From Homoserinimonas sp. OAct 916 (GTDB lineage Bacteria; Actinomycetota; Actinomycetes; Actinomycetales; Microbacteriaceae): a DNA stretch of 64,000 nucleotides. The position numbers and the translations under genes were made by a program. Each line of letters starts with the position of its first letter. Positions within the stretch are counted from its first letter, which is position 1. The notes under the pieces are model-generated. The model saw nothing but the letters and a program-made list of their open reading frames with translations, was not told where the DNA came from and made no database searches. Positions 552 through 47,648 of this stretch are shown piece after piece. The stretch covers positions 186,001 to 250,000 of the forward strand of contig NZ_QJHB01000004.1 in the NCBI RefSeq assembly GCF_003260275.1, in the 5' to 3' direction.

Positions 552-648
552 CAGTGTCTCCCCCGCTCGGCTCGCGCTCGTCAACGAATGCCCGGTAGCC
601 CTCCCGGGCGTCGGGCACATTCTCGGCCCTCCGGTCCATGGCGCTCAT
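532..648 (-). CDS. Small 38-aa ORF resembling the C-terminal tail of an enoyl-CoA hydratase
   Basis: An ATG at 648 overlaps the stop of the alpha/beta hydrolase (ATGA) and opens a 38-codon frame that ends 20 bases inside the MaoC-like gene. The peptide contains VPDAREGYRAFVDEREP, which looks like the 'EG..AF.eKR.P' trimerisation tail at the C-terminus of crotonase-family enzymes. The rest of a crotonase is absent. It could be the leftover of a deleted enoyl-CoA hydratase gene that still couples translation between its neighbours, or a real microprotein. Coding status is uncertain. Confidence 0.35.
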   Translation of the reverse strand: MSAMDRRAENVPDAREGYRAFVDEREPSGGDTDVSSAY

Positions 649-7491: not shown

Positions 7492-7540
7492 GTCAACTCC
7501 ATTATTGATGTAGGCACTAGGGACTAATGCTGGCCGGTAT

Positions 7541-7551
7541 ATGTCTGACAT
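7541..7551. promoter_or_regulatory. Perfect 11-bp palindrome ATGTCTGACAT (candidate GntR/FadR-type operator)
   Basis: ATGTC-T-GACAT is a perfect inverted repeat in the intergenic region between the importer operon (start 7491) and the divergent acyl-CoA dehydrogenase gene (7753). It fits the t-nGT-n3-ACn-a half-site pattern known for FCD-type GntR regulators. Close copies occur at 13729, 26831, 26857 and 44833. A minus-strand promoter candidate (TTGCGC, 16 bases, TATATG) lies just upstream of it, so binding would cover the transcription start region. Confidence 0.6.
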
Positions 7552-8919: not shown

Positions 8920-8920
8920 C

Positions 8921-11728: not shown

Positions 11729-12879
11729 CAGTAGGAACGGGGAAGCGCGAGCGCTTTGTGGGCGATGTGGTTGAGCAGCATCTCCGAGCTGACGGGTGCG
11801 ATTCGAAACAGCCGGACCAGCCCGGACAGAGTCGACAACCCGTACTCGCGGGCCATGCCGTTGCCGCCATGGGTCTGGATCGCAGCATCCAGTGCGAAGG
11901 TCGCCGCCTCGGACGCCGCCAGCTTGGCCATGGCCGCGGACAGGCCGGCGTTCTGTCCCGCATCGAAATCTCGGGCGGCCTTCTCTGTCAAAAGGCGCGC
12001 GCCCGCAAGCTTCGTCTCGGCGTGTGCCAGCGGATGCGAGATGGCTTGATGCGCGCCAATGGGAACGTCCCAGACCGTGCGCGTCCGTGCGTACTCGGCA
12101 GCCTTGTCGATCGCGTAGCGGGCGATACCGTTCAGCAGAGCCGCGCTGCTGATGCGCTCGGGGTTGAGCCCGGTGAACAGCACGGCAAGGCCGTCCTCGG
12201 CGCCGACGATCGCATCCGCCGGAACCCGCACATCGTCAAAGAACAAGGAGTACTGCCTCTCGGGCGAGATCACCTCGACCGCTATTTCGGTGCGAGACAG
12301 CCCCGGCGCGTCGGTGGGCACGAGAAAGACCTTGAGCCCTGGGGCAAGGCCGTCTGGTCCCCCTTCGCCCTGGGCGACAACCATGAGTGCATCGCAGTTG
12401 TCCACATGTGAGACGTAATACTTCTGGCCGCTGAGAACCCACTGGCCGTCTTCGAACCTGGCCCGGGTGGTGATCTTGTGGGTGTTGGATCCGGCATCGG
12501 GCTCGGTGATCGCAAAGCCGAGCACCTTCGAACCTTCGGCCAGCCCCGGTAGCCAGGTGGATTTCTGCTCCTCGGTCCCATGGTGCACGAGCATGGAGGC
12601 ACAGACCGCGGGGGACAACGAGATCAGCATGAGCGGCGAGCCGGCGATCGCGGTCTCCTCTGAGAGAACCGCGAGTTCCTCGATCCCCGCACCCCCGCCA
12701 CCGAACTCCTCGGGGATGAACACGCCGAGTCCACCGGCGTCGCCCAGGGCCTGCCACAGCTCACGGGCATTTCCCTTCTCCTCGCTCGTGCGCACGAAGT
12801 AGTCGTGGCCGAAGTCACGCATCAGGCGACGAATCGAGTCTCTGTAGGCATCAAGCTCGGCGGTCTTATCGGAGGGCAT
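11728..12879 (-). CDS. Acyl-CoA dehydrogenase family protein (383 aa)
   Basis: Typical acyl-CoA dehydrogenase layout with ITEPDAGSNTH and SGQKYYVSHVD flavin/substrate motifs and QTHGGNGMA in the C-terminal bundle, ending in ALPRSY. As in the gene at 7753, the YEGT base is replaced (RIAPVSSEM), while a Glu occurs in the GLNPERIS segment equivalent to the isovaleryl-CoA dehydrogenase base. The start at 12879 is chosen for its AGAAAGG site; it overlaps the racemase gene by 14 bases. It probably oxidises a branched or unusual acyl-CoA. Confidence 0.85.
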   Translation of the reverse strand: MPSDKTAELDAYRDSIRRLMRDFGHDYFVRTSEEKGNARELWQALGDAGGLGVFIPEEFGGGGAGIEELAVLSEETAIAGSPLMLISLSPAVCASMLVHHGTEEQKSTWLPGLAEGSKVLGFAITEPDAGSNTHKITTRARFEDGQWVLSGQKYYVSHVDNCDALMVVAQGEGGPDGLAPGLKVFLVPTDAPGLSRTEIAVEVISPERQYSLFFDDVRVPADAIVGAEDGLAVLFTGLNPERISSAALLNGIARYAIDKAAEYARTRTVWDVPIGAHQAISHPLAHAETKLAGARLLTEKAARDFDAGQNAGLSAAMAKLAASEAATFALDAAIQTHGGNGMAREYGLSTLSGLVRLFRIAPVSSEMLLNHIAHKALALPRSY

Positions 12880-13699
12880 GGGGGCCTTTCTCTTCGTTGG
12901 ATTTTGTAGCCGGGGCGGTGAACACGCAGACGTCGCACTCATCCGGATTCGGGACCTCGCCTGTGGCAAGCCACGCGTCGATGATGGAGGGTATGGTGCC
13001 CGCTCGCTGGGTACCCAGCGGTCGCGTGGCTGAGCGGCCCGAACGCACGACGTGATACGCAGATCTCAGCCCGGCCTCACTCGCGTCGATGACGGGAAAC
13101 GAGCAGCGCGATTGAACGGCAGCGGCGATCGGTGACATGCAGGTGCACCCGAGCAGCACTGCATCGGAGGAATCCTGAGCGACCGCCCGATGGCAGGCTG
13201 CCACAATGGCGTCGACGGTCGCGCCCTCTCCGCGGATCATTCGCGCCTTGACCCCGGCGGCCGTACCGACACGGTCGAGTTCCTCTTCGGCCCCGACGTG
13301 ATGAACCCCCGAACAGGCGACCCCGCCAGCGCAGTTCGCGAGACGCTCCCGATAGAGCCACCCCATCGACTCCGGCCAGACCGTGACAATCGAGAAACGC
13401 CGGCCACCATCTGCGGCTTCCGCTATGCCCGCCTCACCGGCACCGACCACCGGCACCGTGGACACGGTTCGGATGCGCTCGATGGCGTAGTCACCGAACG
13501 TATCGATCAGCAGCGCGTCACAGCCATCGGCCAACGCCGTTTCGGCCGCGTCGACGTGCGCCAGTTCGACCAGCAGATGGTCGTAAGGAGTGCGCGCGAA
13601 TGCTCGTACCCGCAGCTCCTGCAGCCGCACGTCGATGCCGTCGGGCGCAGCCAACACGGGAGCATCCTTGCCATCCGAGTTGATCACCGCTATCCGCAT
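12866..13699 (-). CDS. Aspartate/glutamate/hydantoin racemase-family protein (277 aa)
   Basis: The N-terminus MRIAVINSDG and two repeated alpha/beta halves match Asp/Glu/hydantoin racemases, which invert an alpha-carbon with two acid/base residues. The second catalytic segment VLLGCTCMS keeps its Cys; the first, LLIDTFGD, has Thr where most members have Cys. Thr/Cys pairs are known in some amino-acid racemases of this family. Start 13699 follows the family N-terminus; ATG at 13720 is possible. First gene of an operon with acyl-CoA dehydrogenase and enoyl-CoA hydratase. A role in amino-acid, hydantoin or arylmalonate-like chemistry is inferred. Confidence 0.7.
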   Translation of the reverse strand: MRIAVINSDGKDAPVLAAPDGIDVRLQELRVRAFARTPYDHLLVELAHVDAAETALADGCDALLIDTFGDYAIERIRTVSTVPVVGAGEAGIAEAADGGRRFSIVTVWPESMGWLYRERLANCAGGVACSGVHHVGAEEELDRVGTAAGVKARMIRGEGATVDAIVAACHRAVAQDSSDAVLLGCTCMSPIAAAVQSRCSFPVIDASEAGLRSAYHVVRSGRSATRPLGTQRAGTIPSIIDAWLATGEVPNPDECDVCVFTAPATKSNEEKGPHALR

Positions 13700-13728
13700 A
13701 ACCTCATCGTCTCCACTCATCTCTTGAA

Positions 13729-13739
13729 AAGTCTGACGT
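13729..13739. promoter_or_regulatory. AAGTCTGACGT, partial copy of the TTGTCnGACAA palindrome
   Basis: AAGTC-T-GACGT keeps the GTC-n-GAC core and lies 30 bases upstream of the racemase start (10 upstream of the alternative ATG). TTGACT at 13756-13761 on the minus strand could be a -35. The outer bases are less conserved than at 7541 and 44833, so this is a weaker site. Confidence 0.4.
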
Positions 13740-13744
13740 ATCAC

Positions 13745-27799: not shown

Positions 27800-28594
27800 T
27801 CAGCAACCGTCACCATAGGCGGAGCTGAGCTTGGCCAAATGTTCTTTCATGGACGACGAAGCGCCTACACTGTCGCCCGCCTCAATGCGTAAAAGGATCT
27901 CGATATGGTCCTCAGTGACGCTTGTCCAGAACGTCGCACCCAAGCCGTTTGGGACGGCTCGGGCCTGAAGTACGCGGAAAACCGGTTCGGCCATGACGCC
28001 CAAGAGCCGGTTGCTTGATGCCTCTACCACAAGGCCGTGGAAGTTGCGGTGATCACGGAATTTCCGGCCGCGTCCCCTTGCCTGGTTTTCTCGCTCGACC
28101 ATGACCCGCATCTCGTCGATATGGTGCTGTTCGTGGCGAAGGGCAGCCAGACCAGCCGCGGGGACCTCTAGAAGCTCACGTGCCTCTAGCAGGTTCGCCA
28201 AAGAAACGTCGTCAGCCCCCGACATCAGTCCCAGGCTCGTCTCGAGGTAGTCGCTTACCTGATCGAACCGCATCCGCGAGATGAACGTGCCACCGGTGGT
28301 CCCTCGGGTTGTATTGACCAGGTCGCGGGATGCGAGCGCACGCAGCGCCTCACGAACGGTACTCCGGCTAACGCCGAAAATCTCGGCCAGTTCAGACTCA
28401 GCCGGTAGCCGGTCCCCCGACCCGAGCGATCCGTCGAGGATGAGGTCACGCAGTTGATCGGCGACCTGCTGATAGGCAGGCCTAACCTTGCCTACCTGCG
28501 GGCCAAAGAGGGCTTCACGAGCCTTTGAACGAGCGACCAAGGCGTCGCCTTCAACTTCACCTCCGTTGGTCTTTCCAACCACGTATTGTCTCAC
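27800..28594 (-). CDS. GntR-family regulator, FadR/FCD subfamily (about 264 aa)
   Basis: N-terminal winged helix (AYQQVADQLRDLILDGS, GDRLPAESELAEIFGVSRS, TVREALRALASRDLV) and a C-terminal all-helical FCD ligand domain with metal-type His residues in RNFHGLV, VTEDHIEILL and MKEHLAK. Start is uncertain: GTG 28594 is given; TTG 28627 and GTG 28582 are possible. A near-operator TTGTCTCACTT overlaps this start. It is the only intact non-IS gene in the IS cluster and is the best candidate to bind the TTGTCnGACAA sites upstream of the surrounding catabolic operons. FCD regulators usually sense carboxylic acids or acyl-CoAs. Confidence 0.85.
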   Translation of the reverse strand: MRQYVVGKTNGGEVEGDALVARSKAREALFGPQVGKVRPAYQQVADQLRDLILDGSLGSGDRLPAESELAEIFGVSRSTVREALRALASRDLVNTTRGTTGGTFISRMRFDQVSDYLETSLGLMSGADDVSLANLLEARELLEVPAAGLAALRHEQHHIDEMRVMVERENQARGRGRKFRDHRNFHGLVVEASSNRLLGVMAEPVFRVLQARAVPNGLGATFWTSVTEDHIEILLRIEAGDSVGASSSMKEHLAKLSSAYGDGC

Positions 28595-28596
28595 TT
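28586..28596. promoter_or_regulatory. TTGTCTCACTT, one base away from the 26831 operator
   Basis: The site differs from TTGTCTGACTT by one base and overlaps the assumed start of the GntR gene. It could serve autoregulation if a downstream start (GTG 28582) is used. The mismatch breaks the right half site, so it is only a weak candidate. Confidence 0.25.
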
Positions 28597-28777
28597 TTCT
28601 TGGACTAGGTGGCGTTGCTGAATGCAAGAGTCGCGCACTATTGCGCGCATCCGCTCGAAGCGTACCATCCGAGCTATACCAATGACCCTAGTCTTCGGTT
28701 CCCGGGCGCACCTTGTCGATTCGAGTTGCTGTTGTCGCGATGGGTCACGTCCCGCTGAGTGGATGCTCCTATCGTTG

Positions 28778-33409: not shown

Positions 33410-33521
33410 GAGGACCTCCGTGGATTGAGATGAGTGTGGTAGCCCATATCGATACCGGAGGTCCTCACCTCATGTCACATCACACGCCGCTGCACACAAC
33501 CTCCGTGGGAAGAACACCTAG
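33410..33521 (+). mobile_element. IS481 solo remnant: start and end of a deleted second copy
   Basis: The sequence before the IS481 gene (CGGAGGTCCTCG then ATG on the minus strand) is mirrored at 33460-33475 on the plus strand (GGAGGTCCTCACCTCATG). Shortly after, GGGAAGAACACCTAG at 33507-33521 repeats, in inverted orientation, the transposase end at 32436-32450 (HN-x-x-GKNT stop). The simplest reading is a second IS481 copy in opposite orientation that lost almost all of its coding region. Its TAG also supplies the stop of the thioesterase gene. Confidence 0.5.
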
Positions 33522-34276
33522 CGGTCACCTTCTTGGCCTGAATCGCTGTTCGCCCACACAACCCGGCGCGTCTGACGCACCTGTGCGATGAAAACACCGT
33601 GACGGTCATAGAGTCTGGACTCCTCGACGCAGAACTCTCGCGTTGCCCACATCGTGCTCTGGGTGACGAAGTGCCACGCGTGACGATCAAAGCGGACACC
33701 GGGCGCGAAATGGATCGTGAAATCAATCGTGGGCACGAACGCCGGCCGCTCCTCGCGGTAGAACATGCCGGGCGGCTGTGCATCGAGAAAGATCGCGGCA
33801 AGGCCGTACTGGCCCAGCTCCGGGGCCTGCTGGCTCGTCTCGTCGAAACGGATCCATGCCTCGGTCCGCTGGCGACGAACGTCGTCGGCGGCCGGGATCA
33901 GGCGGTGATCGAGGAAGGACTCGTATCTCATCTCGCCATAGGCGAAGTTGTATCGTGCCAGCGACATCGGATCAGGCAAGTGCCCGATATCCACCGGGAA
34001 ATCGAGAACCCGTTCAGTCATTCCGCGCCCGAGCTTTCCAAAGGCGGTCAGCCGCGAGTGGCCCTGCACGAGTTCCACGTTGACCGCGGCGGTGGAGACT
34101 CCCTCATGGAGAACCTCGACCCGCCACCGGCCCGTGACATCGCGCACCGCACCGGTGAACTGGATACTGACACTGAGCGGAATGAACCCGTCGACCACCT
34201 GGACCGACTCAATCACACGAGCAAGAACGTATCCGCCGTAGATGCCGTCATATCCGTGCCACACCGCCGGGAACAT
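33518..34276 (-). CDS. Acyl-CoA thioesterase, TesB-like double hotdog (252 aa)
   Basis: Two hotdog halves: HGYDGIYGGYVLARVIESV with RDVTGRWRVEVLHEG, and FDETSQQAPELGQYGLAAIF with IDFTIHFAPGVRFDRHAWHFV. Enzymes of this type hydrolyse acyl-CoA and can release CoA from dead-end intermediates. The ATG overlaps the cupin stop (TGATG). The last dozen residues run into IS481-derived sequence, and the stop codon belongs to that remnant, so the natural end may have been altered. Last gene of the 13-gene operon. Confidence 0.75.
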   Translation of the reverse strand: MFPAVWHGYDGIYGGYVLARVIESVQVVDGFIPLSVSIQFTGAVRDVTGRWRVEVLHEGVSTAAVNVELVQGHSRLTAFGKLGRGMTERVLDFPVDIGHLPDPMSLARYNFAYGEMRYESFLDHRLIPAADDVRRQRTEAWIRFDETSQQAPELGQYGLAAIFLDAQPPGMFYREERPAFVPTIDFTIHFAPGVRFDRHAWHFVTQSTMWATREFCVEESRLYDRHGVFIAQVRQTRRVVWANSDSGQEGDR

Positions 34277-34875
34277 CAGGCGGATTCCACGGGGACGCGG
34301 TGCACGAACGCGCTGGAGACCCTGGCGGCACCCCCCTCGCCGTCGATATGGTGCCACTGCGACAACTCGCGGCCGATCACGTCGGAGCCTTGGACAAGAA
34401 TCTCCTCGTCCCCCCGGGGGTGAGCCGACCACCGCGCTTCGGATGTCACGAGGAAGTCCCGACCCGCAGAGGCGCCGATGGGCACGGACACGATCCCTTC
34501 AGACACCGCACACGCACCGAGCTCGTCCACGGTCCTGAAAATCGCCGGCCCACCGAACCAGGCGAGCACACGACAGCCTTCCGGCGCTCGCATCTGCGTC
34601 CGCAAATAGTACGCGGGAATGAAAACGAGGTCTCCGGGCACGTAGCGGACACCTTCGATCTCAAGGTATCCGTCAAGAACGATAAACTCCTCCGCCGCGA
34701 AATAACCACCAGGTGTGGTTCTCTCGAACCCGCGGGGGAATCGCCCCATGATTGTGAAGGTTGCACCGGCAGACGCAAGCGGCACAAGGGACAGTGAGCG
34801 ATTGGCTCCCGGCATCGGCACGTCTCGCCACGTCTCAGGCTCCACCGACAGGTCCACGTATCTGGCCCGGGCCAT
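34276..34875 (-). CDS. Cupin-domain protein (199 aa)
   Basis: One cupin barrel with GGYFAAEEFIVLDGYLEI, VPGDLVFIPAYYLRT and a second similar beta region near RWSAHPRGDEEILVQG. It resembles the DUF4437-like cupin at 1439-2272, though shorter. The ATG overlaps the lyase stop by one base. Metal-dependent isomerase, dioxygenase or lyase activity is possible; nothing in the sequence decides it. Confidence 0.6.
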   Translation of the reverse strand: MARARYVDLSVEPETWRDVPMPGANRSLSLVPLASAGATFTIMGRFPRGFERTTPGGYFAAEEFIVLDGYLEIEGVRYVPGDLVFIPAYYLRTQMRAPEGCRVLAWFGGPAIFRTVDELGACAVSEGIVSVPIGASAGRDFLVTSEARWSAHPRGDEEILVQGSDVIGRELSQWHHIDGEGGAARVSSAFVHRVPVESA

Positions 34876-35738
34876 CAGCGCCTGGGCCTGTCCGCGAGTG
34901 CGAGGGTCTTGCGCGCGCCCCGCAGTACCGCGAGGTCGATGAGGCGTCCGGCGGAGTCCAGCACAACCCCGCTGCCCTCGGCTTCGGCCTCGGCAAATAC
35001 CTCGAGCACCGACTCTGCTTCGGCGATTTCCTCCTCGGTCGGTGTGAACACGTCGTGCACCACGGGGATCTGGGCCGGGTGGATGCAGGCGCGGCCCACA
35101 AAACCCTGACGACGCACGCGTTCAGTCGAGGCCAACAATGACTCAGGATCCGAAGTGAGCCGCGAGACCGGGCCAAGGGGCGGATTGATCTGCGCGGCCG
35201 CACTCGCGAGCACGATCATCGAGCGGATTCCGCCGAGCTCTGCCTCGTCTGCGCCGGGCTCAATACCGGTGTCAGCGCCCAAGTCGACCTCGCCGATCTG
35301 GAGCTGGTGCACCCGCGGGCCCTCCGCAATAGCGGGCGCTGCGAGAACTGCGCGGGCCGTCTCAATCAGCGGCATCAGTAGAGTGCCGATGTCTCCCCGC
35401 GCTGTCAGCAGGTCGGCCACCGCGGAAACATCGCCGGGGCCCTCACACTTTGCGATCACCAGGCCCGTGAGCGTCGGGATATTCGCCAGTGCGCCGGCGT
35501 CGGTGAGGAGGAGTGGGCCCGGGTTGATGCGAACCCAGAGCTCGGTCGCCAGGTCGGCGGGCTGCTCCCGCAGCCAGCGCACCACCGTCGAGCGCGCGTT
35601 GTCCTTCTCCGTCATCGGCACCGCATCCTCGAGGTCGAGGATCAGGGCGTCCGCTCCCCGGGTCAACGCCTTGCTGAGCTTCTCAGGGGCGTTGCCCGGA
35701 ACGTAGAGGTACGATCGCGGCAGACTGACCCCGCTCAT
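34875..35738 (-). CDS. HpcH/HpaI aldolase / citrate lyase beta (CitE)-like protein (287 aa)
   Basis: TIM-barrel lyase with LPRSYLYVPGNAPEKLSKA, DALILDLEDAVP (Asp/Glu metal ligand region), VRINPG, and the later LMPLIETARAVLAAP with Glu, IGEVDLGADTG and ACIHPAQIPVV. These match stand-alone CitE/CLYBL proteins, which act on malyl-CoA, citramalyl-CoA or beta-methylmalyl-CoA (C-C cleavage or thioester hydrolysis). The ATG overlaps the dehydrogenase gene by four bases. It probably cleaves a late beta-hydroxyacyl-CoA of the operon's pathway. Confidence 0.85.
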   Translation of the reverse strand: MSGVSLPRSYLYVPGNAPEKLSKALTRGADALILDLEDAVPMTEKDNARSTVVRWLREQPADLATELWVRINPGPLLLTDAGALANIPTLTGLVIAKCEGPGDVSAVADLLTARGDIGTLLMPLIETARAVLAAPAIAEGPRVHQLQIGEVDLGADTGIEPGADEAELGGIRSMIVLASAAAQINPPLGPVSRLTSDPESLLASTERVRRQGFVGRACIHPAQIPVVHDVFTPTEEEIAEAESVLEVFAEAEAEGSGVVLDSAGRLIDLAVLRGARKTLALADRPRR

Positions 35739-36895
35739 CCGACGACCGTCTCGCCCTTGATCAGTGACTTCGCCACGACCGTGCGCAAGACGTCGTTCGT
35801 CCCCTCACCGATGCTCATGAGGATTGCGTCACGATACAGTCGTTCGACCTCGAACTCCGTCGAGTACCCGTAACCACCGTGCACTTTGAGGGAGTCGATT
35901 GCTGCCTCCAGCGCCACCTCGGAGCAGAAGATCTTGGCCATCCCCGTCGCACCGTCAGCCCGCCCGTCACGAACGGCATCTGCTGACCAATACGCCATCA
36001 GTCGAGCCGCCTGGACTTGGGTGGCAAGCTGACCCAGTTTCATCTGAATGGCCTGAAAGTCGGAGATCGGCTTTCCAAAGGCGTGGCGCTGCTGCGAATA
36101 GGAGAGGGCCTCATCGTACGCACGCTGGGCGATGCCCACGGAACGCGCGGCGATGTTCACCCGTCCCCACTCGAGCGCCGAGAGCACTTGCTTCATGCCT
36201 GTGCCCTCGACCCCGCCCAGGAGCTGATCCTTGTGAACGCGAACGTTGTCGAGCTGGATCTCGGACGACTCGGTTCCCTTGTAGCCAAGCTTCGGGATGT
36301 CCTTGGTCACTTCGTAACCGGGGGTGTCCGCTTCGATCAGAAGGACACTCATTCCGGTGTGGGCTGGCGACGCACTCGGGTCAGTTTTCACGAGCACCGG
36401 CAGCGGGTCAGCGTACCGGGCATTGGTGATCCAGATCTTGGAACCGTTGACGACGTAGTGATCACCGTCGAGACGGGCGGTCGTGCGGATGCCCTGCAGA
36501 TCGGTGCCCGCGTCGGGCTCGGTCAGCCCGATGCCTGTTCGCCGCTTGCCCGTGGCCAGGTCTGGCAGGTACTTTTCCTTCTGTTCGGTGGTGCCGTGCA
36601 TGGCGAGGAGTCGGCATGACAACGAATGGCTGCCCAGAATGCCGGCAATCCCCATCCAACCACGCGCGATCTCCTCGAATACGAGCGCAAAGGCAACCGG
36701 ATCCAGGTCGAGGCCGCCGTATTCTTCAGGAACGGTGATACCGAACAGACCCATATCGGCCATACCCTTGACGATCTCGGTCGGGTAGCGGTCCGACTGT
36801 TCCCACTCGCGTGCGACCGGGATGATCTCTCGGTCGACGAACCGTCGCAACAGTGCACGAAACTCGCCCTGTTCCTCGTTCAGCTTGAAATCCAT
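35735..36895 (-). CDS. Acyl-CoA dehydrogenase (386 aa)
   Basis: Canonical acyl-CoA dehydrogenase: GIGLTEPDAGTDL, VVNGSKIWITNARYAD, REQ-type QRHAFGKPISDFQAIQ, VHGGYGYSTEF and the catalytic IGEGTND motif with the C-terminal Glu. It differs from the dehydrogenases at 7753 and 11728, which lack that Glu. FAD is reduced while a 2-enoyl-CoA forms; electrons go to ETF. AAAGG precedes ATG 36895. It follows the DUF35 gene by about 40 bases in the operon. Confidence 0.92.
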   Translation of the reverse strand: MDFKLNEEQGEFRALLRRFVDREIIPVAREWEQSDRYPTEIVKGMADMGLFGITVPEEYGGLDLDPVAFALVFEEIARGWMGIAGILGSHSLSCRLLAMHGTTEQKEKYLPDLATGKRRTGIGLTEPDAGTDLQGIRTTARLDGDHYVVNGSKIWITNARYADPLPVLVKTDPSASPAHTGMSVLLIEADTPGYEVTKDIPKLGYKGTESSEIQLDNVRVHKDQLLGGVEGTGMKQVLSALEWGRVNIAARSVGIAQRAYDEALSYSQQRHAFGKPISDFQAIQMKLGQLATQVQAARLMAYWSADAVRDGRADGATGMAKIFCSEVALEAAIDSLKVHGGYGYSTEFEVERLYRDAILMSIGEGTNDVLRTVVAKSLIKGETVVG

Positions 36896-36934
36896 TGGTA
36901 ATACCTTTCGAAGAGGACGGTCACGGCCGTCGGT

Positions 36935-37321
36935 TCAGTGGAAAACGGGAAGGGCACGGCCATCGGGCAGGTCGGTCCAGCCGACATTCACCTGGTCGCC
37001 AATTGCCCATTGGTCGCCGTCAACAAGACGGGTGAGGATGAGCGGCCCTTCGGTGAGGCGCACGCGGGCCACCGTGTAGGGGACGTCGACGTCTGGCCGT
37101 GGTGCCCGGTGGATCACGGTGCAGGCATCGACCTCGCCGGTACCCGCAGTCTCGCGAAGTTCCAGGTGATCCATTGATGAGCAGGCTGTGCACACTGCGC
37201 GGGGCGGGTGCTGAAGGTGCCCGCACTGCGTGCACTCCTGCACCATCAGCCGGTGTTCACGCGTGGCGTCCCACCATCCGGTGGTCACGTCATCAGCGGG
37301 GGGAACTTCAGGAAGGCTCAT
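36935..37321 (-). CDS. DUF35 Zn-ribbon/OB-fold protein (128 aa)
   Basis: N-terminal rubredoxin-like zinc ribbon CTQCGHLQHPPRAVCTACSS, followed by an OB fold (YTVARVRLTEGPLILTRLV). DUF35 proteins bind acyl-CoA and act as partners of thiolase-like enzymes or MaoC hydratases, for example in steroid side-chain aldolases (Ltp2) and acetone/HMG-CoA-type complexes. The ATG overlaps the thiolase-like gene by four bases, supporting a complex between the two products. Confidence 0.88.
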   Translation of the reverse strand: MSLPEVPPADDVTTGWWDATREHRLMVQECTQCGHLQHPPRAVCTACSSMDHLELRETAGTGEVDACTVIHRAPRPDVDVPYTVARVRLTEGPLILTRLVDGDQWAIGDQVNVGWTDLPDGRALPVFH

Positions 37322-38466
37322 CGGTCAACTCCTAGTACAACTGTCGCGTGGGTGGACAGGATGCCACCGGTGCCGTGGGCCACAGCGGTGCTGGCGCCCT
37401 CGACCTGCCGGTCTCCGGATTCGCCCCGTAGTTGACGGACCGCCTCGACCAGCAGCAGGATGCCGTACTGTCCCGGGTGGCAATAGGACAGGCCACCACC
37501 GGAGGTGTTGAGCGGTAATGCTCCGCCGGGCCGGATGCGGCCATCTGCGATGAAGCCAAGAACTTCGCCACGACCGCAGAAACCCAGCGCTTCGACGCTC
37601 AGCGCAGCGGTGATGGTGAAGGAGTCGTAGACCTGCAGAACGTCGACATCGGCAGGAGTTATGCCCGCGCGCGCGAAAGCGTCCCGACCCGATCCGATGG
37701 CACCCGGAGCGGTGAGGTCATCCACCGCGGTGAAAGACGTGTTGGTCGTCCGCTCGCCGTATCCCAGAATCTCCACGGGTTTGCGGGGGAGGTCGCGCGC
37801 CCGCTCGAGCGAGGTGAGCACCACTGCGCCGCCCCCGTCGGTGACCAGACAACAGTCGGCCACGGTCAACGGGCTCGAGATCATTGCCGAGGTCACGACG
37901 TCCTCCGCCGTGATCGGGCCCTTCCCATAGCGGAACGCCTTCGGGTTCAGCAACGCCCACTCGCGGGCGGCGACAGCGATCTCCGCGAGCTGTTCGCGGG
38001 TTCCGCCGAACTTGTGGAGGTACTGCTGGGCAGCCATCGCATAATACGAAACCGGGAAGAGCATGTCGTACGGCTCTTCAAACTGGGCCTCGGGGATGTG
38101 CGGCTCGTGCACGCCGCCAAGCCTGCGCGATTTCGCTGAACGCTGGTTTGAGGCGAAGCTGATGACGATCGTCGTCGCTTGACCGGCCTGAATGGCTTGG
38201 GCCGCGCGAGCGACCATCATCTCGTAGGCTGACCCGCCCGCGAAGGTCGAGTCGGTCCAGGTCGGCTGAATCGCAAAATAGTCGGCGAGCTGGGTTGCCG
38301 AAAAGCGAGAGATACCGGTCGTGGCGATGCCATCGACGTCAGCGAGGGTGAGCCCGGCATCGGCCAGCGCTCGCGTCACCGCCTGTGACTGCAGGGTGAG
38401 GATTGACTTGCCGGTCACACCGAGATCAGATTCGGCCGCCCCGACGATGGCCACGCGCGCAGTCAT
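37318..38466 (-). CDS. Thiolase-like protein, SCP-x/Ltp2-aldolase type (382 aa)
   Basis: The two-fold thiolase architecture is present (VAIVGAAESDLG at the start, GGGLSYCHPGQYG near 323-335 in the C-terminal half). The first active-site Cys is replaced: the GGS-A-Y-E region at 77-82 carries Ser79. A His (330) in CHPGQYG and Tyr280 in QVYDSF remain. Members lacking the nucleophilic Cys and paired with DUF35 are known to be retro-aldolases (Ltp2, DitF) or non-decarboxylating thiolase-like enzymes. With DUF35 downstream and a MaoC pair upstream, C-C cleavage of a beta-hydroxyacyl-CoA is the best guess. Confidence 0.8.
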   Translation of the reverse strand: MTARVAIVGAAESDLGVTGKSILTLQSQAVTRALADAGLTLADVDGIATTGISRFSATQLADYFAIQPTWTDSTFAGGSAYEMMVARAAQAIQAGQATTIVISFASNQRSAKSRRLGGVHEPHIPEAQFEEPYDMLFPVSYYAMAAQQYLHKFGGTREQLAEIAVAAREWALLNPKAFRYGKGPITAEDVVTSAMISSPLTVADCCLVTDGGGAVVLTSLERARDLPRKPVEILGYGERTTNTSFTAVDDLTAPGAIGSGRDAFARAGITPADVDVLQVYDSFTITAALSVEALGFCGRGEVLGFIADGRIRPGGALPLNTSGGGLSYCHPGQYGILLLVEAVRQLRGESGDRQVEGASTAVAHGTGGILSTHATVVLGVDR

Positions 38467-38894
38467 CGTGCACCCGGGCCATCTGCGCTGCCGAGGAGCA
38501 CAGTGGCATGGGCCGGTGCGGCAACGGTGCGACCTTCTGAACCGTCCTCGCCCACAACAACCACCCGCTGCTCAAGCACCAGATACTCGTCGCCAACCTC
38601 GGTGATCGTGCCTTCGCAACGTACCGTTTCACCGGCGAACACCAGGTTTCGGAAGGTGAAGTCGAGCTTGTGCGTGAACGACTGCGGACCGAGCCAGTCC
38701 TGGATCTGCTCCACGAGCAACGCGCCGAATACTTGACCGTCAACTACCGGGCCGGGCAGTCCGTTCTCCGCCACGACCTCGGGATCGTAGTGGAGTCTGT
38801 ACCAATCCCAGGTCGCTCCTGCATACGCCACCATGTCAACGAGGTTGATGGTGCGCTCAAGGACCGGCATCGAATCTCCCACCTGAAAGGTCAC
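38463..38894 (-). CDS. MaoC-family hydratase, catalytic-type subunit (143 aa)
   Basis: Hotdog-fold hydratase with an intact D-x4-H motif (WDWYRLHYD) and the FGALL/QDWLG helix. The next gene upstream encodes a hotdog protein lacking the His. In actinobacterial side-chain degradation (ChsH1-ChsH2 type) two such chains, one active and one scaffold, form an enoyl-CoA hydratase with DUF35; the arrangement here is similar. It overlaps both neighbours by four bases. Confidence 0.8.
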   Translation of the reverse strand: MTFQVGDSMPVLERTINLVDMVAYAGATWDWYRLHYDPEVVAENGLPGPVVDGQVFGALLVEQIQDWLGPQSFTHKLDFTFRNLVFAGETVRCEGTITEVGDEYLVLEQRVVVVGEDGSEGRTVAAPAHATVLLGSADGPGAR

Positions 38895-39391
38895 TTGGCA
38901 ACTCCCGACTGGACGAAAATTATGGTCTCCTTGTTTTCGGCCAACTCTTCACCATGCTGATTGGTGTAGGTCGCGGCCGAGGTGACGACGAGCATGTCTG
39001 CGCCCGTGCTGGTCTTCTTCTCGGCGAGATCAGTGATCTCCCAGGTCGCGGTTATGACGTCCTCGGGCCTGATCCGCCGGTGGAAGGTGTACCAGTTGCC
39101 GCCCCGCACCTTGCGGGTACCGGGGATCTCGATCTCCCACACGTGGCCGGCGTAGCCGTCGGCGGCAATCGGCAGGTTCGCGTACTGGTTGGTCTCGCAC
39201 ACGAGGGTCAGGGGTGCGGTGACGCCCTGCAGGCCCTGGGAACGCGCGTACTCGGGATCGGAGTACAGCGGGTTGTTGTCGCCGATCGCGAGACCGAAGT
39301 AGCGTCCGGCGGCACCACCGAGCTCCTCGGGAGCGGTGTACACCTTCGTAGTGCCCAGAAGGGCCCGGACCTCGTCGGTGATCAAGCTCAT
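38891..39391 (-). CDS. MaoC-like/FAS1-type hydratase N-terminal-domain protein, lacks catalytic His (166 aa)
   Basis: Start 39391 overlaps the RidA-type stop (ATGA). The domain shows YFGLAIGDNNPLYSDPEYA; the Asp is present, but the hydratase His five residues later is Tyr. Later parts GNWYTFHRRIRPEDVI and EITDLAEKK are typical of the MaoC N-terminal (FAS1-like) half. This argues for a scaffold role in a heterodimer with the protein at 38463-38894. Confidence 0.75.
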   Translation of the reverse strand: MSLITDEVRALLGTTKVYTAPEELGGAAGRYFGLAIGDNNPLYSDPEYARSQGLQGVTAPLTLVCETNQYANLPIAADGYAGHVWEIEIPGTRKVRGGNWYTFHRRIRPEDVITATWEITDLAEKKTSTGADMLVVTSAATYTNQHGEELAENKETIIFVQSGVAK

Positions 39392-40602
39392 GCCTTGTCC
39401 TCCGGGTAGAGGGCCATCGGGAGCACTTCGAGCATGAACTCGGGGCGAAGCAGTGCCTTGCAGATGCCGCCGGTCGAGGCCGGCCACGGTGCCTTCAGCA
39501 TCCGTTCCCGCACCGGCGCCACCTCGCGGTAGACCGGGAGAGCCGACTCCACGCAGTACTCGGTGGTCCACAGCAGGTTCTCGGCGCCCAGACCGGCGTG
39601 GGTGAGCAGCTCGATGATCGACCCATAGGTCACCTCGGCCTGGGCCGCCATGTCGCCCGGATAGAGCACCTCCTGGGTCTTCATGTCGAGCGAGGCGAAT
39701 CCAGACATGTACAGCGTGCGACCCGCTTTGATCCCCGGCGCGTAGGTCAGCGTGTCGTAGCGCGACCAACCCGGGTTGACCAACTCGAGCGGGTGCCGGG
39801 ACGCCGTGACGTCGATGGCGATCAATGACTCGGGGTGGTGGAGTCGGCTCATCAGAATTCCACCGGCCCCGGGGTACACACCGGCTCCGCCCAGACGCTC
39901 TTTACGCACGCGGTGAGTGCCCTTGTAGACGTCGCGCGTCGCAGGGGTCGAGTAGTCATAGGTCGTGACGGCCTGATCGATCGACATTCCGGCGCGCTGC
40001 AGGAGGTCGTCCGCCTTGTCGAGGCAGTAGGCATACTGGCTGACAAAATCACCGGCGAATACGACGTTGCCATCCGCATCGATGGGGACCACAGTGGGGA
40101 GGTAAACCGCCCCGTCGGTGCCTTCCTTGACGGCCGAGCGCTGCCAGGTGCCTGCCTCCCGCGACTCACTTGCGACCATCAGTTCACGGCCGCCCCCCTT
40201 CTTGGCCATGAGTTCGACCTCCAGGAAAGCCGTGCGACGCACGAGCCGCTCGACGATGATCGTCGACACGACTGGCTCATGCCCGCCGAAGAGTTCCTTG
40301 CGGACAGCGACCGCGGCCTCATAGTCCCCGATCCCTGACACCGTGACGTTCTCGGTGATGCGCACGACGTCTTCCGGCCCGAAGCCAGCACCTTCAAGGA
40401 TTGTGAGGACCTTGGTGTAGGCGATGCGCGCTTGCTGTTCCATCGTGCCTGTAACCGTCATCTTGCCGACGGTCTCATCAAAGGCAGCGCTGGTGTGCCC
40501 CGAGGTCCACGCGCTTTCGCCTTCCGTGAGGCCCAGGCTGAAGGTGAAGCCTTCGTAGGGGAACCAAGTGAATTTGGGTGTGGTGATCGCTTGCAGAGCC
40601 AT
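39388..40602 (-). CDS. Three fused RidA/YjgF-like domains (404 aa)
   Basis: A normal RidA chain is about 130 residues and trimeric. This protein has three successive units: about 25-137 (AWTSGHTSAAF, LEGAGFGPEDVVRITENVTV), about 150-270 (VVFAGDFVSQYA, LLQRAGMSIDQAVTTYDY) and about 285-398 (LYMSGFASLDM, LLTHAGLGAENLLWTTEYC). It may fold as a pseudo-trimer in one chain. RidA proteins hydrolyse reactive enamine/imine intermediates; RutC-like members act in pyrimidine breakdown. In this operon it may detoxify or hydrolyse an imine formed from a nitrogen-containing substrate. Confidence 0.75.
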   Translation of the reverse strand: MALQAITTPKFTWFPYEGFTFSLGLTEGESAWTSGHTSAAFDETVGKMTVTGTMEQQARIAYTKVLTILEGAGFGPEDVVRITENVTVSGIGDYEAAVAVRKELFGGHEPVVSTIIVERLVRRTAFLEVELMAKKGGGRELMVASESREAGTWQRSAVKEGTDGAVYLPTVVPIDADGNVVFAGDFVSQYAYCLDKADDLLQRAGMSIDQAVTTYDYSTPATRDVYKGTHRVRKERLGGAGVYPGAGGILMSRLHHPESLIAIDVTASRHPLELVNPGWSRYDTLTYAPGIKAGRTLYMSGFASLDMKTQEVLYPGDMAAQAEVTYGSIIELLTHAGLGAENLLWTTEYCVESALPVYREVAPVRERMLKAPWPASTGGICKALLRPEFMLEVLPMALYPEDKA

Positions 40603-40613
40603 AGTCGTCCTCT

Positions 40614-41978
40614 TTATTTGCTGTCTTCAACCGTTGTCTTGGCGACGACGGTCATGATGTTGTGGAGAGTGGGTTGATCTTCGAGGGCCTCGATCGCGGC
40701 GATGATGCGGGCGCTGTCGTCGCCGACGTTGCCGGTGAACTTGGCGTGGAGCTCCGCGTCGCTCAACGGGTTGTCTGGTCCCCCGGCGCTGCGTTCAACA
40801 GAGCCCACAATTCGCCGCCCGTCGCGCAGTCCCACCAGCACCTCGCCGCGTGCGTCTGCAGCGACGTTCGCAGAGGGGGCGAGCTCGATCGATATGCGCG
40901 CGGCGATTTCGGCAACCTGCGGGCGAGAAATGCTTGCAGGTTCGAATGTCGCCAACGTCATATCCTGATCGACGATGATGGCGGCCGCGCTCCACGGAAG
41001 CGAGAACTTCGCCGCATACGGGCTCGCCGGACGGGTCAGATCGCGGCTGGTGTCACACACTACCGACGCCGAGTCCGGGTGTACCCGTGCGGTGACGAAT
41101 TCGACATCCTCCGGGGCAAAATTCACCTGGCGTCGGGCAGCCTTTAGTGCATCAAGCGTTGCGTGAGAGAGCTGGCAGGCCGGGTACGGTTTGATGCCGA
41201 TCCGTGTGGTTTCCCACCGCTCTCCCAGAGCGTCGACGATGCTCTCGGGATTGGTGGCCCCGCTCGCGAGAGCATCAAAAACTCCGTGAGGCCCGTCAAA
41301 AACCGTCTCCGGGCCGGTGGCTCCCGCTGAGGCGAGGCGGGCGGCGATGATGCCAGACTGTGAGGCGAAACCCGGGTGCAGCTGCTTGGTCGACGCGCCG
41401 GTGGCCAGGAAGGCGAGGAGACCCCCAGCCTGACTGCCGGCAATCCCGAGTGCATTCGTGGTCTGCTCGACGTCGAGTCCGCACAGGCGCGAGGCGATGA
41501 GAGCTGAAGAGAATACCCCGGCGACCATGGTCGCGTGAAGTCCGCGAGAGTGGAAGCCGTGCGGGGCGGCTGCGGCGATTCGGCACACCGCTTCGTAGCC
41601 GACGATCGCCGCCAGGAGGATCTCCTCGCCGGAAGCACCGACCTGCTCCCCAACCGCGAAGGCCGCGGGGAGCACGACCGCCGTGGCGTGAACCAGCCCG
41701 CCCGCATGGGTGTCGTCAAAGTCAAGCGCGTGCACCAGGGTTCCGTTCGCCAAAGCCGCGGCCGGCGCCGACACTCGCGCCGAGGTGCCCAGGATCGTGG
41801 ACTCCGGTGGACCCCCCAGGCCGCGGGCGACGTGGATGGCCGGGTCTGCCGAGCCCGACCGGAACCCTGCAATCGAGTTGCCGATGCCGTCGAGCAGGTG
41901 ACGCACGGCGGCCTCACGCACGGGCTCGGGCATTGTGGTCACACCGAGCCCCCACGTTGCCAGGTCGCGCGCAATCAT
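40614..41978 (-). CDS. MmgE/PrpD family protein (454 aa)
   Basis: Helical N-terminal domain with HALDFDDTHAGGLVHATAVV, ATGASTKQLHPGFASQSG and a small C-terminal alpha/beta domain after RIGIKPYPACQLSHA. This follows MmgE/PrpD dehydratases, which act on methylcitrate-like hydroxy acids or on cis-aconitate-type acids. It is clearly distinct from the true prpD at 49491. It lies 11 bases before the RidA gene and overlaps the CoA-transferase gene, so it works on the operon's own substrate. Confidence 0.85.
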   Translation of the reverse strand: MIARDLATWGLGVTTMPEPVREAAVRHLLDGIGNSIAGFRSGSADPAIHVARGLGGPPESTILGTSARVSAPAAALANGTLVHALDFDDTHAGGLVHATAVVLPAAFAVGEQVGASGEEILLAAIVGYEAVCRIAAAAPHGFHSRGLHATMVAGVFSSALIASRLCGLDVEQTTNALGIAGSQAGGLLAFLATGASTKQLHPGFASQSGIIAARLASAGATGPETVFDGPHGVFDALASGATNPESIVDALGERWETTRIGIKPYPACQLSHATLDALKAARRQVNFAPEDVEFVTARVHPDSASVVCDTSRDLTRPASPYAAKFSLPWSAAAIIVDQDMTLATFEPASISRPQVAEIAARISIELAPSANVAADARGEVLVGLRDGRRIVGSVERSAGGPDNPLSDAELHAKFTGNVGDDSARIIAAIEALEDQPTLHNIMTVVAKTTVEDSK

Positions 41979-43228
41979 CGTGTCGCTGCTTCCGCCTTGG
42001 CGCCACCACGTGGCATCTCGCTGTCAACCGGAATTCCGAACGCTCCCTGCGCCGTCAACCTCTCGATCGTTTCCCTGTCGAATCCGGCGACGTCACTGAG
42101 AACATAGTCGAAATCCTCGTTTCGTCTCGGTGCACGCCGGTACTCAGGAATGTCATTGCCCACGCGCACGGGTGAGGCCACCTGCTTGAGAGTACCGAAG
42201 TGAGGGTGCTCAGTCTCAACAATGAGGTTGCGGGCCCGGGTGTGGTCCTCCTCCAGAGCCGCCCCCACATCGTTGATAGGGCCACACGGAATCGACGCTG
42301 GGTACAGTATGCTCAGCCACTCATCGACCGTCTTGGTCGTGAAAATCTCTTCCAGCTCGGCGAGCAGCTCCTTGCTGTTCTGCTGGCGGCCGGAGAAGTT
42401 CCCGTAGGGGGACTCCTCGAGAGCCCACTCTGGCCGGCCGACCAAGGGTGCGAGCCGTTGCCAGAATTTCTCCTTCGCGCAACCCACCACAATCCAGCCG
42501 TCGCTTGCCATGAAGGCCTGGAACGGCACGAGCGAGGGATGGGCCGAGTGCCTCGTGCGAACCGGGGTGAATCCCGCGTTCAAGTGCCAGGTCGCCGGGT
42601 AGGTCAGCATGGCGATTGCGGTGTCATACAGACTCACGTCGCAGTCCATACCCACACCGTCACGACGTGCGGCGTGGAGTCCGCTGAGCAACGAGATCGC
42701 CGCCACCAGCCCACCGGAATAGTCGACCATCGAAAGTCCAGACTTGGTGGGCGGGCCATCAGGCTCGCCGGTGAGGTCCATCCAGCCACTGAGGCCCTGC
42801 AGGATGTAGTCATAGCCCGGTTCGCTCTGACGCGGACCGGTCATTCCGAAGCCGGAGAGCGAGACACACACGATCGCAGGATTGAGGTGCTTCAGATCGT
42901 CATATTTGATGCGCATCTTGGCCGGCACATCACCGCGGAGGTTGGAGTAGACCACATCGGCGGTCTTGACGAGCTCCTCAAAGACCTCTCTGCCGGATTC
43001 GGTCGAGAGATCCAGGGAGAGGCTCTTCTTGTTGCGGTTGAACGTCTCGAAGAAGAGTGAGTCCTCGCCTTCGAAATAGGGGGGAACGTACCGTCCGACG
43101 TCACCGCCGAATCGTGGATCTTCGATCTTGATGACCTCGGCGCCGAGGTCGGCGAGGTGAACCGACCCAAAGGGCCCCGCACCGTACTGTTCTACTGCGA
43201 TGATGCGTACATCCTCGAGGGGTTTCAT
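41975..43228 (-). CDS. Family III CoA-transferase (CaiB/FRC type, 417 aa)
   Basis: Class III CoA-transferase features: N-terminal LEDVRIIAVEQYGAGPFGS, LADLGAEVIKIEDP, NRNKKSLSLDL, and the catalytic Asp169 in SMVDYSGG, the same residue number as in formyl-CoA transferase. It moves CoA from one acyl-CoA to a carboxylic acid and so can activate the pathway substrate without ATP. The ATG overlaps the LLM gene by four bases. Confidence 0.9.
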   Translation of the reverse strand: MKPLEDVRIIAVEQYGAGPFGSVHLADLGAEVIKIEDPRFGGDVGRYVPPYFEGEDSLFFETFNRNKKSLSLDLSTESGREVFEELVKTADVVYSNLRGDVPAKMRIKYDDLKHLNPAIVCVSLSGFGMTGPRQSEPGYDYILQGLSGWMDLTGEPDGPPTKSGLSMVDYSGGLVAAISLLSGLHAARRDGVGMDCDVSLYDTAIAMLTYPATWHLNAGFTPVRTRHSAHPSLVPFQAFMASDGWIVVGCAKEKFWQRLAPLVGRPEWALEESPYGNFSGRQQNSKELLAELEEIFTTKTVDEWLSILYPASIPCGPINDVGAALEEDHTRARNLIVETEHPHFGTLKQVASPVRVGNDIPEYRRAPRRNEDFDYVLSDVAGFDRETIERLTAQGAFGIPVDSEMPRGGAKAEAATR

Positions 43229-44259
43229 GTAATACTCTCCCTGATTTCAGCGATCATGGTAATGAGCTCATCCTGCGCAGCACGTATCTCAGCTGGGGTC
43301 ATGCCGTGTGTCGGGGCGCTCAGCTTGACCGCGTCGGCCAGCCCGTTGTATGCGGTGATGCGCTCGGCGACCTGGTCACGAGTGCCAGCCATCGTGAGCA
43401 CATCGACCATCGAGTCCGATACCTCGTTCGCAAGGTAGTCTGCGCCGCGTCCCTGCCGGAATGCATCGATGACCCGCTCTTGTTCTTCAGCCAGTCCGTG
43501 AAAGTCGAAGAAGTCGGCGTAGCTGCGCACGCTTGCATAAAAGCCCACGGTGCCCGCGACGTAGCGTCGCGCGGTCGTGATGTCCTCGTGAACTCCGCAG
43601 CAGGCGGAGACCACCACGTCGACGTCGGCGAGTGATTTGCCTTCGACCTTCTGGACGCCAGCTTCGAGCTCGGGCAGGACCCGGTCCGCCAGGAATGCCG
43701 GCGAGCAGAGCTCGTGACTGATCCAGCCATCGCCGATCTCGCCGGCGAGCTGAGTCATGATCGGACCCATGGCGGCGAGGTAGATCGGAATATCGGATCG
43801 GATCTGGTTGAGTGCGCGCTCGTAGCCGCGAATGCGCATCGGTTCGAAGTCGCCGTCGAGGTCGATGGGGCTGCCATCGGCCGCCCTGGACCAGAAATGG
43901 CGCACGTTGCGCACGGTCTCGCGCATATGGGCCACGGGCTTCCCCCAGCTCGCGTTGTGCCATTGTTCGTTGAGGCGCCGGACGCCCGAACCGACACCAA
44001 GGATGAAACGGCCGTCCGAGATCTCGTCAATGTCGAGCGCCTCGAGCGCCAGGATCATGGGGCTACGGGTGAAGCCAAGCGCGATGCCCGTGGCCACCTT
44101 GGCCGTCGTGGTCGCTCCTGCTACAGCGGCCGCAGTGACGGTCGCGCTGCGGTGGAGCTCTTGGACCCACAGAGTCTCGGCCCCCGCTGCCTCAGCCCGA
44201 CGGCTCACGTCGAGCAGTTCGGCCATCGACTCACCCCAAGGCTGGAAGGTGATCCTCAT
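43225..44259 (-). CDS. LLM-class flavin/F420-dependent oxidoreductase (344 aa)
   Basis: Luciferase-like TIM barrel with MRITFQPWGESMAELL, ETLWVQELHRSATVT, IALGFTRSPMILALEA, GRFILGVGSGVRRLNEQW and GTRDQVAERITAYNGLADAV. The ATG at 44259 lies four bases after the MaoC stop; the longer frame runs back into that gene. It could be an F420-dependent dehydrogenase/reductase or FMN monooxygenase. It is the second gene of the 13-gene operon. Confidence 0.82.
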   Translation of the reverse strand: MRITFQPWGESMAELLDVSRRAEAAGAETLWVQELHRSATVTAAAVAGATTTAKVATGIALGFTRSPMILALEALDIDEISDGRFILGVGSGVRRLNEQWHNASWGKPVAHMRETVRNVRHFWSRAADGSPIDLDGDFEPMRIRGYERALNQIRSDIPIYLAAMGPIMTQLAGEIGDGWISHELCSPAFLADRVLPELEAGVQKVEGKSLADVDVVVSACCGVHEDITTARRYVAGTVGFYASVRSYADFFDFHGLAEEQERVIDAFRQGRGADYLANEVSDSMVDVLTMAGTRDQVAERITAYNGLADAVKLSAPTHGMTPAEIRAAQDELITMIAEIRESIT

Positions 44260-44263
44260 CTGG

Positions 44264-44788
44264 CTACTCGCCGCCCAGGCCGAGCGGCTGCCTGCCCTCG
44301 GGAAAAATGCCTTCGAGCTGTTCTGCTCCACGCTTGTAGACGTAAAAAATACGTTTGAACGAGCAGACCTCGTCACCGGTCTGGTTCAGCGTGCGAGTGC
44401 GGACGGTGACGATGCCGGCGTGGGGGCGACTTCCGGACTCACGCTTCTCAAGCACGATCGACTCGCTGAACAAGGTGTCCCCGGCAAACACCGGGTGGGT
44501 CATCTTGATGTCGTCCCACCCCAGATTTGCGAACGCGTTCTGCGTAAGGTCAGTGACACTCTGGCCCACAGCGATTGCCACCGTCAGGGTCGAGACGACC
44601 AGCGGCTGGCCGAACTCGGATTTCTTGGCATATTCTGCGTTGAAATGCATCTGGTTGGTGTTCATTGTCAAGAGGGAGAACCACGTGTTGTCGGCTTCCG
44701 TCACAGTGCGGCCGAGAGGGTGCTTGTAAACGTCGCCCACCTCGAAATCCTCGAAGAAGCGCCCGGTCCAGCCCTCTTTGATTGACAT
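44264..44788 (-). CDS. MaoC-family dehydratase, mesaconyl-CoA hydratase-like (174 aa)
   Basis: MaoC domain with FEDFEVGDVYKHPLGRTV, WFSLLTMNTNQMHFNAEYA and FGQPLVVSTLT. The hydratase pair is N-x4-H (NTNQMH), the arrangement seen in the mesaconyl-CoA/itaconyl-CoA hydratase-like branch. Start 44788 is chosen for GAAAGG seven bases upstream. First gene of the operon that runs to 33518; the promoter with an embedded operator lies 35-65 bases upstream. With the CitE-like lyase at the other end, a mesaconyl/citramalyl-type step is conceivable. Confidence 0.8.
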   Translation of the reverse strand: MSIKEGWTGRFFEDFEVGDVYKHPLGRTVTEADNTWFSLLTMNTNQMHFNAEYAKKSEFGQPLVVSTLTVAIAVGQSVTDLTQNAFANLGWDDIKMTHPVFAGDTLFSESIVLEKRESGSRPHAGIVTVRTRTLNQTGDEVCSFKRIFYVYKRGAEQLEGIFPEGRQPLGLGGE

Positions 44789-47638: not shown

Positions 47639-47648
47639 ATCTTCGCCC

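Follow-up and report, generated by a model that had tools for sequence, protein, structure and literature searches.

What does an operon degrade when it joins a luciferase-like (LLM) oxidoreductase and a chain of three fused Rid domains to a series of enzymes acting on coenzyme A (CoA) esters? Such an operon of thirteen genes lies at positions 33518-44788 of a stretch of 64,000 nucleotides from Homoserinimonas sp. OAct 916 (contig NZ_QJHB01000004.1, positions 186,001 to 250,000), and this whole stretch is called the window here. The genes, g1 to g13, and the three parts (A, B and C) into which we divide them are as follows.

g1: 44264..44788, minus strand; MaoC hydratase of the RipB/Ich kind (Pfam and NCBIfam); part A
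g2: 43225..44259, minus strand; LLM oxidoreductase (Pfam and NCBIfam); part C
g3: 41975..43228, minus strand; family III CoA-transferase (Pfam and NCBIfam); part A
g4: 40614..41978, minus strand; MmgE/PrpD protein, candidate dicarboxylate isomerase; part A
g5: 39388..40602, minus strand; triple fusion of Rid domains that lack the catalytic arginine; part C
g6: 38891..39391, minus strand; FAS1_DH-type MaoC protein, probably the inert hydratase half; part B
g7: 38463..38894, minus strand; MaoC protein, probably the catalytic hydratase half (D-x4-H motif); part B
g8: 37318..38466, minus strand; candidate retroaldolase of the thiolase fold, nucleophilic Cys missing; part B
g9: 36935..37321, minus strand; ChsH2-type zinc ribbon/OB-fold (DUF35) partner; part B
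g10: 35735..36895, minus strand; acyl-CoA dehydrogenase; part A
g11: 34875..35738, minus strand; HpcH/CitE-like CoA-ester lyase of the RipC/Ccl kind; part A
g12: 34276..34875, minus strand; cupin-fold protein, named from its predicted model
g13: 33518..34276, minus strand; acyl-CoA thioesterase fold, peripheral

The genes stand in the order given by an initial annotation, which had been made from the sequence alone. From g1 to g13, the distances at the successive junctions are +4, -4, -4, +11, -4, -4, -4, -4, +39, -4, -1 and -1 bases. That is, consecutive genes overlap by 1-4 bases at 9 of the 12 junctions, and the description of thirteen consecutive, mostly overlapping genes was borne out. 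Its family names are backed by the curated cut-offs of Pfam for 12 of the 13 proteins; the exception is the cupin g12, which has no Pfam match and of which the predicted model is cupin-like (mean predicted local distance difference test score, pLDDT, 88.5). The triple RidA protein was confirmed by the model of g5 (mean pLDDT 91.9), in which a single chain folds into three Rid units. The two kinds of MaoC hydratase proved to be three proteins, namely one Ich-like protein (g1) and one split pair (g6/g7).

We think, with a probability of roughly 0.55, that this is a GntR-controlled operon which degrades a branched, side-chain-bearing carboxylate by way of a substituted methylsuccinate, with pyruvate and an acyl-CoA as the end products; the earlier description as a CoA-dependent catabolic operon is supported. 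In the proposed pathway, the substrate would be taken up by an Opp importer and activated with CoA by a ligase adjoining the window. The LLM enzyme (g2) and the fused Rid trimer (g5) would carry out a putative oxidation or ring opening, which would be followed by a dehydrogenation and by hydration through the g6/g7 pair. Retro-aldol cleavage by g8/g9 would shorten the side chain, the remaining 2-methylsuccinate-type dicarboxylate would be stereo-isomerised by g4, and g3 would move CoA to it from succinyl-CoA. Finally, g10 would dehydrogenate, g1 would hydrate and g11 would cleave the ester to pyruvate and an acyl-CoA. What was observed is the gene content, the conserved gene order, the relatedness of the proteins and their active-site motifs; each reaction, the order of the steps and the substrate are deduced from them.

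Conservation of the operon

The g5 triple-Rid gene was used as a tag for finding related loci. Among 150 genomes of the host's family, only the host itself has it; a phylum sample gave 4 of 396 genomes, a class sample 12 of 394, and a named-genome collection 6 loci (two Dactylosporangium, Sphaerimonospora, two Nonomuraea and one actinobacterial metagenome bin). These samples overlap: the host is in the family, phylum and class sets, and genome G866 was taken to be the same contig as locus L008 (G and L numbers are our handles for genomes and loci). After removal of the overlaps, 20 distinct genomes carry g5.

Presence was counted in 5.9 to 64 kb per genome, so that an absence means absence within that stretch only, and short contigs account for part of the missing genes; the identity thresholds for presence and for gene order were chosen by us for each gene. 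Besides g5, which is in 20 of 20 loci by construction, g6, g7, g8 and g9 are each in 19, g4 is in 18, g3 in 17, g10 and g11 in 16, g2 in 15 and g1 in 14 of the 20 loci. The values for g12, the CoA ligase and the GntR regulator are 12, 11 and 10. Parts A and B travel together, and the thioesterase g13, which was found in 3 of the 20 loci, is peripheral to the operon.

Most of the other Rid-bearing loci share the order g1-g11 in whole or in large part, and we therefore think that the operon is more than a chance assembly. The gene-neighbourhood comparison proposed by the initial annotation thus gave a conserved order among the 20 genomes, although the unit is not unique to the host. Among the departures from this order, g6-g7 are placed ahead of g1 in G751, g1 and g2 are reversed in G395, and g11 is reversed in G821. 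In G155, the LLM and Rid genes are neighbours and lie about 16 kb from the remaining cluster genes on one contig; they also adjoin each other on a short contig of G189. The Rid gene match of G769 (L050) holds one in-frame TGA, which may reflect decay of this copy or a sequencing error. When plasmids were searched with the Rid protein, none of 143 records covered 80% of the query. The best 20 of these records matched it with 32-34% identity over about a third of its length, and the matches to the LLM protein did not exceed 33% identity (best 15 of 105 records).

The methylsuccinate-type genes and the retroaldolase candidates

The whole gene set is absent from the open-licence PubMed Central (PMC) literature searched, and to this extent the initial annotation was right that no described pathway has it, but its five part A genes match the itaconate/methylsuccinate cluster of Cupriavidus necator and Pseudomonas aeruginosa (PMC12290011 and PMC9875883). 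That is, g1, g3, g4, g10 and g11 represent five families of that cluster, all together here, and with the GntR regulator they make up its characterised gene set as given in PMC12290011. That study assayed three enzymes of the two species, namely the CoA transferase, the MmgE/PrpD isomerase and the C4-CoA dehydrogenase; in PMC9875883, single deletions in PA0878-PA0883 showed which genes were needed for each substrate.

The citramalyl-CoA-like late steps that had been suggested from the sequence are supported. The g1 protein exceeds the Pfam cut-off for mesaconyl-CoA hydratase and is nearest to RipB/Ich in NCBIfam, and g11 is nearest to RipC/Ccl. The g4 protein exceeds both Pfam cut-offs for MmgE/PrpD and keeps the carboxylate-binding Asp, His and two Lys. 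We rejected it as a canonical 2-methylcitrate dehydratase PrpD, for which it scored 38.9 and 22.9 bits against equivalog cut-offs of 950 and 458. Elsewhere in the window, at 48.7-53.2 kb, lies a distinct set of Prp-type genes (named by eye).

Part A also occurs in a bare form. A Rhodococcus rhodochrous plasmid carries it in the order GntR, MaoC, CoA transferase, MmgE/PrpD, dehydrogenase and lyase, with proteins 43-72% identical to those of the window, and Caballeronia has all five part A genes (32-61% identity) with a weaker GntR match. The plasmid loci L056, L057 and L058 have no annotated genes and were read by tblastn only. A tree of g3, g4 and g10 was built from the 15 of 20 Rid genomes which have all three genes and from two bare clusters, of which one is actinobacterial; the distant Rhodococcus set L054 and the partial sets L055 and L056 were omitted. 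In this tree, the bare Rhodococcus cluster lies inside the Rid-bearing clusters, with support of 98 against G155 and G395 and of 43-44 for its exact place. This nesting does not support the idea that a bare part A acquired parts B and C by insertion, and rather suggests a loss of parts in Rhodococcus. If so, Actinomycetota may have had the joined form for a long time, and the bare form may have arisen by reduction.

With regard to part B, g8 is related to Sal (9myr, 190.5 bits) and to Ltp2 (6ok1, 188.7 bits); we take 6ok1 to be TcLtp2, and its YDHF motif and Tyr344 fit the Ltp2 numbering. The residue of g8 that aligns with the nucleophilic Cys of a solved acetyl-CoA acetyltransferase (7yvy) is Phe, and no Cys stands at this place in any of the 15 orthologs covering it (of 16). 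Its motif Y280-D-S-F is kept as YDSF in all 16 orthologs compared. In PMC12329534, thiolases are described as requiring the nucleophilic Cys, Ltp2 as using Tyr294 of YDHF and Tyr344, and Sal as using Tyr302 and Cys304 of YDCY. As for the neighbouring genes, g7 keeps D-x4-H in 18 of 18 orthologs, Tyr replaces that His of the motif in g6 in 18 of 18, and g9 of the window has a C4 zinc pattern. These motifs suggest that g7 is probably the catalytic half of a hydratase and g6 its inert half. Taken together, the missing Cys and the YDSF motif of g8 and the catalytic/inert pattern of g6/g7 make retro-aldol cleavage the most likely reaction of g8/g9, for which the acid-base pair would differ from those of Ltp2 and Sal.

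Several points weigh against the proposed pathway. Three part A proteins score below the NCBIfam equivalog cut-offs: g1 has 197.2 bits against 340 for RipB/Ich, g3 has 251.9 against 700 for mesaconate CoA-transferase, and g11 has 151.6 against 375 for RipC/Ccl. Their substrates may therefore differ from those of the itaconate/methylsuccinate enzymes, and for the same reason we say that part A would work like that cluster without counting it among the members. In g4, His stands at the column of the catalytic Tyr of IDS epimerase, the sole column compared; the Rhodococcus and Caballeronia counterparts also have His there. In g8, Ser occupies the place of the Ltp2 oxyanion His and His330 that of the acid Tyr344, so that g8 departs from the YDHF/Tyr344 arrangement of Ltp2. 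With 457.5 bits against 421, g8 also exceeds the cut-off of NCBIfam NF004811, whose annotation name, acetyl-CoA acetyltransferase, implies a thiolase-type role; despite this match, a canonical thiolase is disfavoured by the missing Cys. Lastly, an LLM gene is missing from the covered stretch of G722 (L046).

The LLM protein, the Rid trimer and the substrate

The best NCBIfam score of g2 is with the F420-type family TIGR03617 (189.5 bits, below the cut-off of 278.15). RutA is not among the 25 families listed (of 26) in its NCBIfam result, and the genome encodes the F420 enzyme CofE, above its cut-off. In g5, the catalytic arginine was seen in none of the three Rid units. Its place is held by V112 in unit 1 and S376 in unit 3 according to the alignment, and by A246 in unit 2 according to position only. 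The best whole-chain fold matches of g5 are chorismatases (Z 25.4, 289 aligned residues, root mean square deviation 3.1, 14% identity), and the single-domain Rid fold matches are lower (Z 19.4 and below). Chorismatases are not deaminases. According to PMC4433059, the arginine is essential for imine hydrolysis in Rid proteins, fused 3x-RidA proteins exist, and the functions of arginine-less Rid subfamilies are called unknown; the open-licence PMC papers gave nothing on fused Rid enzymes beyond this one.

These results bear on the reading of RidA and LLM as RutC/RutA chemistry, from which the initial annotation had drawn a hint of a nitrogen-containing substrate. In a Rut-like catabolism of nitrogen heterocycles, the LLM enzyme would open the ring, the Rid protein would hydrolyse the enamine, amidases would free ammonia and the CoA steps would finish the carbon skeleton. 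The adjacent LLM and Rid genes of G155 and G189 would fit it, and so would the nitrilase, isochorismatase and alpha/beta hydrolase genes found in 6, 2 and 5 of the 20 genomes. Against it stand the absence of the arginine from g5, the chorismatase folds, the score of g5 with the RutC equivalog model (54.7 bits against 169.1) and the position of the LLM protein nearest to F420 subfamilies, below their cut-offs. The RutC/RutA comparison is thus not upheld. The hint of nitrogen is weakened by the loss of the Rid clue and keeps the nitrilase and isochorismatase genes on its side, and we consider nitrogen-heterocycle catabolism unlikely.

A somewhat lower likelihood applies to the catabolism of a steroid- or terpenoid-like side chain, in which part B would act, in the manner of the igr operon, on a side chain borne by a ring and part A on a dicarboxylate derived from that ring. 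It would agree with the relatedness of g8 to Ltp2 and Sal, the missing thiolase Cys and the resemblance of the MaoC halves and DUF35 protein to ChsH1/ChsH2. However, no ring-degradation gene was noted among the reading frames of the window, which were inspected by eye and in part by model scanning; g8 has YDSF instead of YDHF, and the MaoC and DUF35 proteins are encoded by separate, unfused genes.

Another alternative is the degradation of tetrapyrrole (heme or bilin) fragments. Oxidised pyrroles would then become 2-methyl-3-substituted maleates or succinates, part A would cleave these to pyruvate, and the propionate side chains would be taken off by part B. We consider this very improbable and rejected it as the general role. 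The methyl-plus-substituent pattern of pyrroles would suit part A, and the deep relatives G155 (L020:1035-2566) and G189 (L065:437-1905) have an adjacent heme-oxygenase family pair and a g12-like cupin beside cluster genes. However, only these 2 of the 20 genomes have such a pair linked to the cluster, no heme oxygenase was found at E 0.001 in 7 of the 20 (some of them incomplete), and the host's own copy is on another contig. The literature searched on bilins contributed nothing to this reading.

We return to the proposed methylsuccinate-type pathway and its part C. In G155 and G189 the two genes stand side by side, and we infer that g2 and g5 act together. We tentatively speculate that the pair carries out a two-step reaction by two enzymes that has no described precedent, with the Rid fold performing chorismatase-like and not deaminase chemistry. 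Such a step might start a pathway for a class of substrates whose degradation in this manner is not yet known, possibly pyrrole- or imide-derived 2-methyl-3-substituted succinates, which the aldolase and methylsuccinate parts would finish.

Under this proposal, an operon that had seemed to lack an assignment becomes a pathway open to testing. Characterised counterparts are known for five of its steps and structural ones for the hydratase-aldolase part, and g2 and g5 can be tested as a pair. If it is true, Rid proteins that lack the catalytic arginine would gain a function. It would also widen the methylsuccinate route from Pseudomonadota to Actinomycetota; PMC12290011 places methylsuccinate isomerase almost only in Pseudomonadota (96.2%).

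The wider cluster and known systems

The natural unit is larger than the 33518-44788 operon. The other features of the window that concern it are as follows.

1..117, minus strand; start of an acyl-CoA ligase gene, which runs off the window into contig C84
553..633, minus strand; enoyl-CoA hydratase remnant, full-length in Dactylosporangium sucinum (L005)
645..1535, minus strand; alpha/beta hydrolase of the wider cluster
1439..2272, minus strand; ChrR-type cupin of the wider cluster, N-terminus uncertain
2308..7551, minus strand; peptide-type ABC importer, OppF, OppD, OppC and OppB (named by eye) with a binding protein
7753..8919, plus strand; acyl-CoA dehydrogenase of the wider cluster
8897..9841, plus strand; VOC-like protein (by eye), conserved in the wider cluster
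9838..11013, plus strand; transporter, MFS by eye
11051..13744, minus strand; enoyl-CoA hydratase, acyl-CoA dehydrogenase and Asp/Glu racemase-like protein
27800..28627, minus strand; FadR/GntR regulator, a related gene lying directly upstream of g1 in several relatives

The left part of the window (645-13744) is syntenic with genes adjoining the same operon in D. sucinum, and G836 and G888 share most of it, namely the alpha/beta hydrolase, the ABC importer, the acyl-CoA dehydrogenase and the VOC-like protein, which has no Pfam or NCBIfam match. In the Asp/Glu racemase-family protein (12866-13744), the first of the two usual cysteines is apparently Thr; single-Cys members such as arylmalonate decarboxylase share this pattern. 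In the presence counts, the window's own ChrR-type cupin and racemase appear as missing only through overlapping better matches.

A second GntR copy (L076:15633-16445), 79% identical to that at 27800-28627, follows the acyl-CoA ligase, so that one copy stands at each half of the split cluster. Several transposase-like reading frames (by eye) lie within 28778-33409, between the GntR gene and g13, and they appear to have split the cluster and cut the GntR gene off from the operon. A segment of lower G+C content (0.51-0.55, at about 16-28 kb) also lies between the left part and the operon. Within it, 15498-26727 encodes a DUF1028 protein, an M20 hydrolase, a second LLM protein and, by eye, an amidase and a second peptide-type ABC importer; this region looks like a separate catabolic island. 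Near the operon on its other side, genes for the alpha and beta subunits of an electron-transfer flavoprotein (named by eye) are present at 46676-48497 and would fit the several acyl-CoA dehydrogenases.

Five known systems can be compared with the cluster. The anaerobic beta-oxidation of benzylsuccinate (BbsAB, BbsEF and BbsG) has in common with it a class III CoA-transferase, a dehydrogenase and a thiolase fold with a DUF35 partner. However, BbsB, the benzoylsuccinyl-CoA thiolase component, has HDAF where g8 has YDSF, and g8 scores 146.6 bits against its equivalog cut-off of 750. The Rut pathway shares an LLM enzyme and a Rid-fold protein, but differs by the low RutC score and missing arginine of g5 and by the F420-type affinity of g2.

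With the 3x-RidA proteins, as described in PMC4433059, g5 shares three Rid units per chain, and chorismatases are its nearest whole-chain fold at 14% identity; g5 differs in that none of its units shows the catalytic arginine and in that an LLM gene stands nearby, adjacent in some relatives. ChsH1-ChsH2/Ltp2 of the cholesterol side chain and Shy-Sal of bile acids share the MaoC pair with one half inert by its motif, the thiolase fold without the nucleophilic Cys and the C4 zinc DUF35 partner. In contrast to them, the window has YDSF in place of YDHF or YDCY, His330 at Tyr344, unfused MaoC and DUF35 genes and no ring genes noted. With the itaconate/methylsuccinate cluster (Ict, Ich, Ccl, Mcd and Msi; PA0878-PA0883), five families are common to both, whereas the window has a different importer and scores below the equivalog cut-offs, and it adds the LLM gene, the fused Rid trimer, the MaoC pair and the thiolase-like/DUF35 pair.

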